64,000 nucleotides of DNA, from NCBI RefSeq assembly GCF_900177665.1, contig NZ_FXAW01000005.1, positions 310,001 to 374,000 of the forward strand, read 5' to 3'. Position 1 is the stretch's first letter; each line of letters begins with the position of its first letter. Shown here piece by piece: positions 1,729-5,479 of this stretch. The notes under the pieces are model-generated. The model had not been told where the DNA came from, did no database searches, and worked only from the letters and a program-made list of their open reading frames with translations. This DNA comes from Marivirga sericea. Lineage in GTDB: Bacteria > Bacteroidota > Bacteroidia > Cytophagales > Cyclobacteriaceae. Made by a program: the position numbers and the translations under genes.

Positions 1729-1765
1729 AAGGCATGGCTAGTCCCATGCCTTATTTTTTATTTTT
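1729..1765 (+). terminator. Rho-independent terminator after the OsmC gene
   Basis: A perfect 9-bp stem (AAGGCATGG at 1729-1737 with CCATGCCTT at 1744-1752, 6-nt loop) is followed by an AT6AT5 tract. It sits between convergent genes and may serve both. Confidence 0.85.
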
Positions 1766-2432
1766 CTAACGGCTCATCTAATAGATAAAAATCAATAAAC
1801 TCCCGAACACAGGCATGACCTCCTTTAGTTTGGAGTACCAAGTTAACTGACTCCTTTATCTTTAAAACTGCATCAGCGGGACAAGCTGAAAATCCGACAG
1901 CTTGCATAACTGCTAAATCATTTATGTCATCTCCGATAATAGCAACTTCTTCAAGGCCAATTTCCAATTTCTCACACCAATCTAATAAAATATCCATTTT
2001 AGGATCTCTGCCTACATAAATATGTTTGATTTTAAGCATTTCTGCTCGATCTTTTACCATATTTAGCTTAAAGCCAGATGAGATAATTCCTGCTTCAATT
2101 CCAAACTGATCAAGGGCACGAATAGCCATACCATCTTTGGCATTGTATTTTTTGAACTGATCTCCACTTTCTGTGAAATACATCCCAGCGTCAGTCATTA
2201 CGCCATCTACGTCAAGAATCAATAGCTTTATCTTTTGCAACTTCTCTTTATCAGCAAACATTGGTCGGCTCAACATATTTGCATGGTCAAGCTGATTTTC
2301 TAAACAAAACAATTTGAAAGCACCTAAAGAAAGCTCATTGAGATTTGAAATATTGTACTCTGCTAAAAAATTAGCAAGGGTTTGGTTTTCCCTTGCTAAA
2401 TATAATTCAAGATTTCTTTTTAAAAGATCCAT
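1758..2432 (-). CDS. KdsC-type HAD phosphatase with N-terminal extension
   Basis: Residues 66-224 form a HAD subfamily IIIC phosphatase of the KdsC type, which hydrolyses Kdo-8-phosphate or related ulosonate phosphates. The nucleophile motif is LDVDGVMTD (Asp74 and Asp76), and the Mg-binding motif is IIGDDINDLAV (Asp168/169). The C-terminal GGHACVREFIDFYL matches the family's usual ending. The first 65 or so residues are an extension not needed for the HAD fold and of unknown role. It is the last gene of a coupled trio: its ATG overlaps the stop of the DAHP-synthase-like gene as TAATG. That partner is a DAHP-type rather than a Kdo-8-P-type synthase, so the true substrate is open. The fold is certain; the reaction is inferred. 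Confidence 0.85.
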   Translation of the reverse strand: MDLLKRNLELYLARENQTLANFLAEYNISNLNELSLGAFKLFCLENQLDHANMLSRPMFADKEKLQKIKLLILDVDGVMTDAGMYFTESGDQFKKYNAKDGMAIRALDQFGIEAGIISSGFKLNMVKDRAEMLKIKHIYVGRDPKMDILLDWCEKLEIGLEEVAIIGDDINDLAVMQAVGFSACPADAVLKIKESVNLVLQTKGGHACVREFIDFYLLDEPLEK

Positions 2433-3430
2433 TAAACAATGTTATAGCCTACACTTTTAGCCACTGGCTCAATGGCGGTTTTCAATGCTCTTAAAGCCTC
2501 ATGCGTTAACTGCTGTGCTGCATCAGATTTTGCTACAGACGGATTTGGATGAGCTTCAACCAACAAACCATCTACTCCCATTGCTACACATGCCTTTGTC
2601 AGTTTTTCAATTCCATAGCGATACCCTAAAGCATGGCTTGGATCTAAGATTACTGGAAGATTGGTATATTCTTGTAAGTAAGCTACTCCACATAAATCTA
2701 ATGTAAAGCGTGTTTTTGTTTCAAATGTTCTGATTCCTCTTTCGCATAATACCACTTGATCGTTTCCACCAGAAAGTAAAAACTCAGCTGCCTGAACAAA
2801 TTCTTGAAGAGTAGAACCAAAACCTCTTTTCAGCAAGACGGGTTTATTTGCTTTGGCGCAAGCCCTTAAAATTCCTTGGTCATACATGGCTTTTGCACCA
2901 ATTTGTATGATGTCTGAATGCTCGATTACTTCATCAATATGAGTAGCATCTCTAGCTTCCGTAATTACTTTTAGCCCATGCTCCTCTCGCATTTTTGCTA
3001 ATAAGTGCAAGCCTTCTAAACCGAGACCTTGAAAACTGTAAGGGCTAGTTCTTGGCTTATAGCAGCCTCCTCTTAATGTGGTGAGGTTTAAAGATTTCAA
3101 TAATTCAGCACTTTGCTGTATTTGCTCCTCAGATTCTACTGAGCAAGGACCACTAATTAATATTGTATTCTTTGTATTGCCTCCAATGGAAACATTTCCA
3201 AATTGCACTTCTCTTGTTTCTTTTCTGTACTCTCGTGAAGCTAATTGCATATCATTGGCAAAAACCCAATGCTCTTCAGTCTTCCCTTTCACTTCAGAAG
3301 GCAGCTCTTTCACCGATGAAGACGTAATTAACACCTCTGTCCCTTCAGAATGAATATGGAAAGCTTTAATCTGTTCTGCTATTTTTGCGGCTTCAGCCGA
3401 TTTAATGTCTTTGTTTAAATGAATTATCAT
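2432..3430 (-). CDS. aroF: DAHP synthase family (type I-beta), N-terminal ferredoxin-like domain
   Basis: This 332-residue protein has the type I-beta 3-deoxy-7-phosphoheptulonate synthase fold, which condenses PEP with erythrose-4-phosphate. Motifs in order are GPCSVE (95-100), KPRTSP (125-130, diagnostic for DAHP over Kdo-8-P synthase), LLKRG (199-203), DPSHALG (263-269) and VEAHP (291-295). Cys96, His266, Glu292 and Asp303 are placed as metal ligands. Residues 1-78 look like the small regulatory domain seen in Thermotoga-type enzymes; no chorismate mutase domain is present. After QIGA the sequence reads KAMYD (180-184), where the family I know has RNMQN, so the Arg expected to help bind PEP phosphate is Lys. 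It overlaps the upstream gene by ATGA and the downstream one by TAATG. Confidence 0.85.
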   Translation of the reverse strand: MIIHLNKDIKSAEAAKIAEQIKAFHIHSEGTEVLITSSSVKELPSEVKGKTEEHWVFANDMQLASREYRKETREVQFGNVSIGGNTKNTILISGPCSVESEEQIQQSAELLKSLNLTTLRGGCYKPRTSPYSFQGLGLEGLHLLAKMREEHGLKVITEARDATHIDEVIEHSDIIQIGAKAMYDQGILRACAKANKPVLLKRGFGSTLQEFVQAAEFLLSGGNDQVVLCERGIRTFETKTRFTLDLCGVAYLQEYTNLPVILDPSHALGYRYGIEKLTKACVAMGVDGLLVEAHPNPSVAKSDAAQQLTHEALRALKTAIEPVAKSVGYNIV

Positions 3431-4428
3431 ATCTCTCCTTTTATCAAGTTCACAAAAGTAACAATTCCTACTGCATTTCCCTTATCATTCAAGACTGGAA
3501 GATAGGTCACAGGAAAAGAATACTGTCGAACCATATGAAGCATTGTATCTACGCCATCAGTATCTAAAATAGTGATTGGTTTTCTGTTAATCATCTCCTG
3601 TGCATCCATACCATGGATGTCGGATAAATTATCTAAAAGTGTTTTACGCAATTCGGCATTTGAGATAATCCCTTGGAAATTATGATTATCCTCCACCAAA
3701 AGGAAGCCCAACTTGCCATCCGTAATACCCGAAAGAATATTCTCCAAGTTTAAATCTTTAAGATCTATGATGGGACATTCTTCTCGAGGAATCATAAAAT
3801 CCTTTACTTTGAAAGTGGATTGGATTTCTCTTTTTGTTAAATCCATTAGTGCGTGTCCAATGCTAGCAGCCTTGAATAAAAAGCTACCCGAAACGGAAGT
3901 ATGAACCCCCATATTCCTTAAAATGAAAGAGACCTCGCCATTCACTCCACCATCAACATGCACATTCTTTTGAGGATATTTCTTTTTGAAATTTCTGATT
4001 TTCTTGAAATTCACAGGATCAAATACTCCCCCGCTTTGGCCAGGAATTGTGGCCATCATCAAAATGAAGTCAAAATCACTGAATTCATCAAAAACTGAAG
4101 TATCTGTGGGCGTAATAATCGCTAAGCCCTTTTGTCCAGTGATATCCGCTGGCATTTTAAAATCATTCGGTAATTGTTCGTATTGAAAAGTCACATACTC
4201 TACCGGATACTTTCTCAATAGATCAAAATATTTCTCTGGGGTCTCTGTAATGATGTGAAGATCGATTGGAAGTTTGCACCAACCTCTAATATTAGCGATA
4301 TCTTCAAATACAGCAGGATCATCATTACAATCTACGTGCAATAGATCCACCTGATGAGCTTCTAAATCTTCTATAGTTTCTTTTAAAGGTCTGTTTTTAT
4401 CGGAGTAAATCGAACCTGATATTTTCAT
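3427..4428 (-). CDS. ribulose-phosphate 3-epimerase-like domain fused to a CBS pair
   Basis: Residues 1-195 resemble ribulose-phosphate 3-epimerase. The four metal/catalytic positions are retained: His31 and Asp33 (LLHVDCND), His58 (IDLHII) and Asp159 (VHVDGG), and IPGQSGGVF (128-136) matches the phosphate-gripping loop in shortened form. Residues 207-333 are two CBS domains, which normally bind adenine nucleotides and regulate the attached enzyme. Standard Rpe proteins lack CBS domains; the Kdo-pathway isomerase KdsD has them on an unrelated SIS fold. The gene is first in a coupled trio with the DAHP-synthase-like and KdsC-like genes (ATGA overlap at 3427-3430). A role as a nucleotide-sensing entry enzyme is inference. 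It is unlikely to be the only housekeeping epimerase, but that cannot be tested here. Confidence 0.8.
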   Translation of the reverse strand: MKISGSIYSDKNRPLKETIEDLEAHQVDLLHVDCNDDPAVFEDIANIRGWCKLPIDLHIITETPEKYFDLLRKYPVEYVTFQYEQLPNDFKMPADITGQKGLAIITPTDTSVFDEFSDFDFILMMATIPGQSGGVFDPVNFKKIRNFKKKYPQKNVHVDGGVNGEVSFILRNMGVHTSVSGSFLFKAASIGHALMDLTKREIQSTFKVKDFMIPREECPIIDLKDLNLENILSGITDGKLGFLLVEDNHNFQGIISNAELRKTLLDNLSDIHGMDAQEMINRKPITILDTDGVDTMLHMVRQYSFPVTYLPVLNDKGNAVGIVTFVNLIKGEI

Positions 4429-4506
4429 ATTTATTTAATTTCTTTTGCATGAATCCCAGTAAATAAGCAATCTCATGCACTTCATAAAACTTCTTTCTAA
4501 ACGAAC

Positions 4507-4562
4507 GCCAAAATTAGCTCTAATAATGTAAAAGATAGAGAAAACTACATGCTAATTTTGGC
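4507..4562. promoter_or_regulatory. 12-bp inverted repeat with promoter box upstream of the epimerase-CBS operon
   Basis: GCCAAAATTAGC (4507-4518) and GCTAATTTTGGC (4551-4562) are perfect 12-bp arms separated by 32 nt. Both arms contain TAATTTTG, an exact TAnnTTTG -7 box: on the minus strand at 4509-4516 and on the plus strand at 4553-4560. The minus-strand copy is placed to drive the trio (ATG at 4428). The 217-bp gap between 4429 and 4645 carries no ORF. The second arm could be an operator, part of an RNA hairpin, or a divergent start. Confidence 0.5.
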
Positions 4563-4645
4563 CTTAGCACTGTTGCCGTTGAAAACTTATGTATTTGAGT
4601 AGAATAATAGAAGTTAATAAGCTTTACTAAATGTATATCATAATG

Positions 4646-5479
4646 CTATTTATCTAAGCCCCAGCTTTGTATAATCTTCTCTTCAGAAATATCGCCAATA
4701 AACAGTTGATACTGTCTAATTAATTGGGCTTTGTACATGGCACTGCCTGGTATGAATTGGATCCCATTCTTCTGGCAATAAGATTTTAAATAATTAGTCC
4801 TGTTATCTTTTTCCGGCATATTGTGACAAAAAAGCATTTTACAATTCGCAATCAATTCAGAAAAGCCTGTTGCATCCAAAAAATTAGGCTGCGATGAAAT
4901 AGGAGTTGCATCTACTACTAAGTCATAGAGTGTTGATATTTTATCATCTTCAATTCTTAAATCCTCTTTTTTAGCCTTCACTTTTTGAGGATTTCTTCCC
5001 GTCATCATTACTTTCAAACCCAGGTCTTTTAATATGTGATAAGCTACGCCAGATACACCCCCATTTCCGTAAATTACAGCTGTTTTAATAGAATTTGGAG
5101 TTGATTTCAAAGCATTTTCTAAAGCAGTTTTTAATCCTAATGCATCCGTATTGTATCCATAAAGTTTCCCATTTTCATTCACTACTGTATTAACAGCTAA
5201 AGTTTTTTTCACAATAGGCTCTACTTCATCTAAGAAAGGAATGATTTTAGATTTGAGTCCGTCTTTACCAGTGACTGCGCCACCTCTTGAGATAGGCGAA
5301 CGCAAGAGGTTAGCATAGTCTTTTGCAGCGATTTCGTGAGGAAAAGTAAAATACAGCAGATTAAGTCCTAATTTCTGAAGGGCTGTATTATGTCTTTCAA
5401 TAGAGCTCGCACTTCCTGAGGTGGAGAAAATGAATTTTGAATTGGGCTCTACTGATACTTTAAATCCTTGTTCTGACAT
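4646..5479 (-). CDS. shikimate dehydrogenase-like oxidoreductase (AroE family)
   Basis: This 277-residue protein has the AroE two-domain plan. The N-terminal substrate-binding segment retains the Ser..Ser..His-Asn pattern (GSASSIERHN), a Val-Thr-Gly-Lys (GGAVTGKDGLKSK) where AroE has its catalytic Lys, and VNTVVNENGKLYGYNTDALG, which holds the Asn-Thr-Asp substrate motif. A Rossmann NADP-binding turn follows (GNGGVSGVAYHIL), with TGRNPQK consistent with NADPH preference. The N-terminus diverges from standard AroE, and the genome may have another copy, so this could use a shikimate-like substrate. It is co-oriented with, and 10 bp from, the ATP-grasp gene upstream, and lies upstream of the epimerase/DAHP-synthase/phosphatase trio. 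The AroE fold is well supported; the exact reaction is not. Confidence 0.8.
   Translation of the reverse strand: MSEQGFKVSVEPNSKFIFSTSGSASSIERHNTALQKLGLNLLYFTFPHEIAAKDYANLLRSPISRGGAVTGKDGLKSKIIPFLDEVEPIVKKTLAVNTVVNENGKLYGYNTDALGLKTALENALKSTPNSIKTAVIYGNGGVSGVAYHILKDLGLKVMMTGRNPQKVKAKKEDLRIEDDKISTLYDLVVDATPISSQPNFLDATGFSELIANCKMLFCHNMPEKDNRTNYLKSYCQKNGIQFIPGSAMYKAQLIRQYQLFIGDISEEKIIQSWGLDK

Follow-up and report, generated by a model that had tools for sequence, protein, structure and literature searches.

A minus-strand trio of probable Kdo-type modules

The window analyzed here, a stretch of 64,000 nucleotides from Marivirga sericea (contig NZ_FXAW01000005.1, positions 310,001 to 374,000), carries on its minus strand, at 1758-4428, a trio of genes that the list of open reading frames (ORFs) and profile searches identify as an Rpe-fold/CBS fusion (Rpe-CBS), a protein resembling the type I-beta synthases of 3-deoxy-D-arabino-heptulosonate 7-phosphate (DAHP), and a KdsC-type phosphatase. 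An ATGA overlap at 3427-3430 links the fusion and synthase genes, and a TAATG overlap at 2432 links the synthase and phosphatase genes, both read directly from the DNA. Families were assigned with Pfam and NCBIfam profiles at their curated cut-offs, and, as read from sequence, the assignments are solid for fold, not for orthology. Three overlapping minus-strand genes of these families are what the original prediction for this DNA had described, and the ORFs, the sequence and both profile collections confirm it. An atypical base composition was considered and rejected (37.2% GC in the trio vs. 36.5% in the window). We consider it likely that the trio is a non-orthologous replacement for KdsD, KdsA and KdsC in the supply of 3-deoxy-D-manno-octulosonate (Kdo).

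Kdo is the sugar that joins lipid A to the remainder of the lipopolysaccharide; the pathway of its synthesis is regarded as fixed, and antibacterial agents are aimed at the enzymes. The classical route is described in the available parts of two papers (PMC9478572; PMC3149649). In the titles and abstract openings listed by searches of open-licence literature, where spelling variants may hide some reports, no description was found of the trio or of the transaldolase-CBS fusion presented below. Like the canonical KdsD-KdsA-KdsC-KdsB-WaaA pathway, the trio comprises a CBS-bearing sugar-phosphate enzyme, a synthase of the type that condenses phosphoenolpyruvate (PEP), and a KdsC-type phosphatase, with KdsB and a WaaA-family protein kept in this genome. 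It differs in that the KdsD slot is filled by an Rpe fold and not by an SIS domain, in that the KdsA slot is filled by a DAHP-synthase-type protein with a KPRT motif and a lysine, Lys180, and in that the trio was not found with KdsA in either genome sample.

The fusion matches Ribul_P_3_epim (PF00834) at 1.2e-21, above the Pfam cut-off, and has a single significant CBS stretch (6.1e-8), while a profile built from 34 relatives covers both CBS repeats of the region. It falls below the NCBIfam Rpe cut-offs (TIGR01163, 69.8 vs. 212.6 bits; NF004076, 81 vs. 165), and the SIS isomerase domain of KdsD/KpsF is absent, the Rpe fold standing in its place. The AlphaFold model, with a mean predicted local distance difference test score (pLDDT) of 87.5, matches Rpe structures and then 4o9k as the first CBS match. 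Five residues, S6, H31, D33, H58 and D159, are invariant in 65/65 sequences (the window and 64 relatives, drawn from 64 of the 67 other loci) and correspond to S8, H33, D35, H66 and D175 of the genome's own canonical Rpe, where their equivalents presumably form the metal-site His/Asp set and include the two catalytic aspartates. The MDGxFVPN loop of canonical Rpe is lost, and Q82, S132 and G134 are new and invariant in the same 65 sequences. Invariant catalytic residues together with a remodelled substrate loop form a pattern of kept chemistry with a changed substrate. The fusion shares with Rpe and allulose-6-phosphate 3-epimerase the barrel, the metal site, both catalytic aspartates and the structure matches, and differs from them in the missing loop, the three new residues and the CBS pair; it also differs from Rpe in that the genome keeps a separate canonical copy.

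When the 34-sequence CBS profile was compared with the PDB, the top match was an arabinose-5-phosphate isomerase, 4o9k (1.6e-15), whose ligand we take to be the activated sugar, cytidine monophosphate (CMP)-Kdo; 3k2v and 3fna ranked fourth and fifth. Eight of nine KdsD proteins, taken from 9 of 20 KdsD loci, scored 41.8-60.3 bits and one gave no match; four transaldolase-CBS fusions scored 18.1-32.3 bits, and, of the genome's other CBS or KpsF-like proteins, the five compared reached at most 27.7 bits (three with matches). By this comparison, the CBS pair of the fusion most resembles the one in KdsD, which makes plausible the control of the entry step by CBS that the original prediction had suggested.

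The synthase matches DAHP_synth_1 in Pfam (1.5e-66), scores 315.5 bits with TIGR01361 (cut-off 267.75) and 360.4 with NF006421 (335), and fails the KdsA model TIGR01362 (117.4 vs. 314 bits). Its top structure matches are 4grs and 1rzm, and the entire N-terminal domain aligns with 1rzm. With the type I-beta DAHP synthases of Thermotoga, Pyrococcus and Aeropyrum (1rzm, 1zco, 1vs1) it shares the fold, the N-terminal domain, the KPRT motif and the four metal ligands, C96, H266, E292 and D303, which are kept in 66/66 synthases (the window and 65 of the 67 other loci; 13 of 30 KdsA loci served for comparison, the ORF filter having dropped the remainder). It differs from them at the PEP-binding arginine of the GAR motif, which is Lys180 in 66/66 trio synthases and Arg in the genome's three other DAHP-synthase-type proteins; M182-Y183 follow in 66/66 and D184 in 65/66. 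Section 23 of PMC6362186 describes this arginine (R120 of Aro1A) as PEP-binding and completely conserved in all five reference DAHP synthases. The trio synthase is thus, on these alignments, a distinct subfamily, and its genomic context is one of Kdo and not of aromatic synthesis.

The phosphatase scores 146.9 bits with the KdsC-phosphatas model TIGR01670 (YrbI family; cut-off 106.95), lies below the equivalog cut-offs for KdsC (141.4 vs. 208) and KDN-9-P phosphatase (141.1 vs. 180), and carries an N-terminal extension of about 60 aa. At one locus, L364, an SIS protein, KdsA and a 163-aa phosphatase 55% identical to the window's HAD protein are grouped. The presence of this relative beside KdsA ties the phosphatase family to Kdo-8-phosphate.

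Genomic context and distribution

The genome is 99.97% complete. KdsA is absent from it at 1e-60, and no KpsF/KdsD over the cut-off was found. KdsB is nevertheless present at 226.5 bits (cut-off 155.2), as is a WaaA-family protein, which scores 147.4 bits with PF04413 (cut-off 23.9). The genome thus looks equipped to use Kdo yet appears to be without the textbook enzymes that make it, and the trio looks the obvious candidate. A canonical Rpe (286.9 bits) is encoded elsewhere, as are three of the four PF00793 proteins: one in the trp operon, which passes the DAHP synthase cut-off, and two, more divergent, on contig C11, which have a chorismate-mutase-like part and fall below the DAHP synthase cut-offs. 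One of these two has aroB and an aroA-like gene as neighbours. With these other copies at hand, the trio holds neither the genome's only Rpe nor its only DAHP-synthase-type protein, and a housekeeping or aromatic role for it was rejected; the original prediction, too, had argued against aromatic synthesis. The genome's other KdsC-like protein above the cut-off scores 261.4 bits as a KDN-9-phosphatase equivalog (cut-off 180), and its gene has in its vicinity one of the CTP-transferase family and one read as NeuB-like.

The gene order is conserved. Among 67 loci from the 66 other class genomes with Rpe-CBS, the synthase gene is present in 65 and the phosphatase in 50; the two loci missing the synthase (L134, L172) end at contig ends, and at L173 the Rpe-CBS gene itself is cut by a contig end. 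The synthase adjoins Rpe-CBS except at L115, where two genes lie between. Among 80 loci from named records, which include cultured species such as Fluviicola chungangensis and a Brumimicrobium and overlap slightly with the class set (L108 and L177 are the same place), 77 have the synthase and 74 the phosphatase. In one of the 67 loci, L119, kdsB stands upstream of the trio, separated from it by a single gene. Rpe-CBS was also seen with neither synthase nor phosphatase nearby, at L187, L188 and L189 (one Lishizhenia and two Crocinitomicaceae assemblies).

The trio and KdsA exclude each other in both genome samples. In the class sample of 295 genomes, Rpe-CBS was found in 67, KdsA in 208, both in 0 and neither in 20; in the family sample of 196 genomes, the counts were 16, 136, 0 and 44. 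KdsA was scored at 1e-60 (208 genomes; 201 above the curated cut-off) and KdsD at 1e-30, and the lists of positive genomes were transcribed by hand for cross-counting. The class count of Rpe-CBS comprises full-length matches together with nine weaker ones in family f5 (including G236), a split one (G168) and a divergent one (G169), all with the synthase among their neighbours. Rpe-CBS together with canonical KdsA thus occurs in none of the 67 class and 16 family genomes; the 80 named loci were not searched for KdsA as such. KdsD matches occur in 1/67 trio genomes, 159/208 KdsA genomes and 7/20 class genomes with neither supply, and KdsB occurs in 62/67 trio genomes, the five misses being 69-94% complete. 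Some of the family genomes with neither supply are 100% complete (e.g., G301 and G354); they may have yet another solution or may have lost Kdo. Fisher p-values for the exclusion are 1e-48 and 1e-9 with relatedness ignored, and since shared ancestry inflates them, the switches between the two supplies weigh more.

Four genera (g26, g21, g51, g29) contain both KdsA and trio genomes and no genome with both, and in the genus of the window KdsA is present in each of the five other genomes sampled and an Rpe-CBS match in none. In a tree of KdsB with 56 rows (33 from trio genomes, 23 from KdsA genomes), built from the genome's own gene and 55 fetched genes chosen non-randomly from those with known places, the starred branches force at least 7 switches between KdsA and the trio. 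Since KdsB must recognize the free sugar and the supplies switch repeatedly on its tree, both can be read as delivering Kdo, and one Kdo-activating enzyme appears to accept either supply.

How the trio reached this genome can be argued from a quick tree and the genus-mates only, and these suggest horizontal arrival. In the tree, which took in 9 of 15 family loci and 17 of 80 named loci and was built without L167, L172, L173 and L174, the window's Rpe-CBS nests in Flavobacteriales with 82% identity to BRH_c54 (Shimodaira-Hasegawa-like approximate likelihood-ratio test, SH-aLRT, 97, a starred branch), apart from the nine family rows. In the genus-mate G437, kdsA-kdsC comes after four genes that are colinear with their counterparts in Marivirga sericea at 60, 72, 82 and 90% identity; in the latter genome the pair is missing and another gene follows the four. 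The genes beyond the pair differ too, which indicates a breakpoint and no clean excision. Three further genus-mates (G348, G458, G479) have another kdsA, and behind it a 313-aa gene read as kdsD from sequence, which the SIS protein of L364 matches at 5e-41. The genus therefore holds two kdsA modules, kdsC-kdsA (L328, L329) and another kdsA followed by the kdsD-like gene (L330-L332), and with the trio as a third layout, the Kdo module changed more than once in the genus.

A second unusual occupant of the apparent KdsD slot was found beside KdsA itself. In 4 of 14 KdsA loci examined (16 were fetched), all from the window's family, the gene next to KdsA joins a transaldolase/FSA domain (PF00923, at down to 1e-36) with a CBS pair (PF00571). 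KdsC-like genes, by BLAST, accompany these fusions, that of L352 matching no Pfam family, and at L360 and L361 kdsB is alongside as well. Like Rpe-CBS, this is a non-SIS enzyme joined to a CBS pair; it differs in having canonical KdsA as its partner and in its aldolase fold, with other chemistry. Different folds with a common CBS regulator thus seem able to occupy the KdsD slot. The features are collected in Table 1.

Table 1. Positions of the trio, its domains and the transaldolase-CBS fusions (window coordinates unless a locus is named)
Feature	Position	Strand	Remarks
Rpe-fold/CBS fusion	3427-4428	-	333 aa, heads the trio; proposed to replace KdsD as the source of arabinose 5-phosphate
Rpe-type barrel, about residues 1-200	3829-4428	-	Alignment of the window and 64 relatives
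CBS pair, residues 205-333, KdsD-like	3427-3816	-	Profile of 34 sequences vs. PDB
Type I-beta DAHP synthase-like protein	2432-3430	-	332 aa; proposed Kdo-8-phosphate synthase substitute
N-terminal ferredoxin-like domain of the synthase	about residues 1-60	-	
KdsC-type HAD-IIIC phosphatase	1758-2432	-	224 aa; proposed Kdo-8-phosphate phosphatase
Transaldolase/FSA-CBS fusion	L352:6440-7447, L360:6193-7197, L361:4042-5055, L363:5892-6899		Beside KdsA

Two neighbours complete the picture of the locus. Upstream of the trio, a divergent AroE-like protein is encoded at 4646-5479 on the minus strand (108 bits vs. a shikimate dehydrogenase cut-off of 200). An aroE query matched in 0/147 other trio loci, where about 5-6 kb on each side, or as much as the contig offered, was covered, and the gene was rejected as a partner of the trio. 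Close to the trio on its other side, at 82-1086 on the minus strand, lies a weak relative of LuxC-type acyl-CoA reductases (26 bits, Pfam).

Proposed pathway and competing explanations

All substrates and products of the trio, and its control by CMP-Kdo, are what we infer from the features above. The Rpe-fold/CBS protein would supply D-arabinose 5-phosphate, most likely through a metal-assisted proton exchange by two aspartates next to the carbonyl, in the form of either C2 epimerization of ribose 5-phosphate or isomerization of ribulose 5-phosphate; with one aspartate on each face of the carbon, the enzyme could epimerize C2 of ribose 5-phosphate to give arabinose 5-phosphate. The DAHP synthase-like protein would then condense arabinose 5-phosphate with PEP to Kdo-8-phosphate, the HAD enzyme would remove the phosphate, and the resident KdsB and WaaA-family enzymes would activate and transfer Kdo. 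The end product, CMP-Kdo, may bind the KdsD-like CBS pair and so damp Rpe-CBS. Formation of arabinose 5-phosphate by Rpe-CBS is less sure than the replacement as a whole. The proposal of a Kdo-type operon built from exchanged modules, already contained in the original prediction, is supported by the gene content, the gene order and the exclusion of KdsA.

Several observations weigh against this assignment. The synthase passes DAHP synthase cut-offs, the KdsA model NF003543 gives it hardly more bits than the trp-operon paralogue (124.6 vs. 118.4), and KPRT, a motif of the erythrose-4-phosphate type, is kept in 66/66 synthases. Its AlphaFold model (mean pLDDT 83.7) falls below 50 in residues 128-135 and 235-243, which belong to the active site, and for this reason does not decide the substrate. 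Rpe chemistry is a 3-epimerization and that of KdsD a 1,2-isomerization. In five aligned members of f5 (L163, L165, L168, L170, L171), the CBS half is degenerate, so CBS control would not be universal, the regulatory part having decayed or diverged there. The KdsC-type gene is found in only 50 of the 67 class loci, a KdsD-like match turns up in one of the trio genomes (G150), neither KdsA nor Rpe-CBS was found in 20/295 and 44/196 genomes, the genome's WaaA-family protein lies below the NCBIfam WaaA equivalog cut-offs (138.6 vs. 363), and the divergent aroE-like gene lies upstream of the trio across a gap of 217 bp (4429-4645). As to the motif, some type I-beta DAHP synthases show relaxed substrate use, and KdsA variants altered towards KPRT remain active; 3stg, among the structure matches of the synthase, is presumably such a variant. 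By analogy, KPRT need not exclude arabinose 5-phosphate as the predicted substrate.

An alternative possibility, which overlaps the replacement of the Kdo supply and which we consider unlikely, is that the trio replaces KdsA while Rpe-CBS is auxiliary, with a pentose-phosphate-balancing or regulatory role, and arabinose 5-phosphate comes from another, unrecognized enzyme. Other sources of arabinose 5-phosphate do exist, since 49/208 KdsA genomes have no KdsD match at 1e-30; among them is G158, which, like three genomes of the family, carries the transaldolase/CBS fusion beside KdsA, and Rpe-CBS stands by itself at L187-L189. An auxiliary part is, however, difficult to square with Rpe-CBS adjoining the synthase at almost every locus where the two are seen, with its KdsD-type CBS pair, and with catalytic residues that are invariant beside a remodelled substrate loop.

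It is more doubtful still that the trio makes a Kdo analogue standing in for Kdo in the inner core, such as a 3-deoxy-heptulosonate from erythrose 4-phosphate or a C5 epimer of Kdo from ribose 5-phosphate. The invariance of KPRT and of the metal ligands C96, H266, E292 and D303 in all synthases, and an entry step with an Rpe fold and not an SIS isomerase, would fit such a product, and the KPRT motif in particular keeps a seven-carbon analogue open. Opposed to it are a KdsB that belongs to one family whether the genome has the trio or KdsA, with the supplies switching at least 7 times on its tree, the occurrence of trio and KdsA genomes within five genera, and a CBS pair closest to that of KdsD. 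Kdo itself is thus the likelier product. The original prediction had favoured an alternative 3-deoxy-ulosonic acid, a part that we do not retain, as the replacement of KdsA (0 co-occurrences in both samples), the retention of KdsB and the repeated switches point to Kdo.

Finally, a synthase feeding the shikimate pathway, with the fusion as a regulated ribulose-phosphate epimerase and the phosphatase incidental, is what the family names of synthase and fusion and the upstream aroE-like gene would suggest, but it is highly improbable given the canonical Rpe, the trp-operon DAHP synthase and the two chorismate-mutase-like proteins (one beside aroB and an aroA-like gene) elsewhere in the genome and the failure of the aroE query in all 147 loci, and it leaves the exclusion with KdsA unexplained.

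Implications for Kdo synthesis in Bacteroidota

Taken together, these observations allow a wider proposal, to which we give about an even chance: that a sizeable part of Bacteroidota makes Kdo without KdsA or KdsD, relying on an Rpe-fold protein that has gained a new activity, as ribose-5-phosphate 2-epimerase or ribulose-5-phosphate isomerase, and on a DAHP synthase that has evolved anew to make Kdo-8-phosphate, and that at least three unrelated folds (SIS, Rpe and transaldolase) occupy the KdsD slot, each with a CBS pair that may sense CMP-Kdo. In the class sample, 67/295 genomes appear to make Kdo with enzymes that family models name aromatic or pentose-phosphate. If this is true, genomes with missing kdsA and kdsD genes would be explained and their annotations corrected, and a new arabinose-5-phosphate-forming activity would be predicted. 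Ultimately, the at least 7 switches on the KdsB tree would then offer a repeated natural swap in which the change of substrate in PEP-condensing synthases can be studied.

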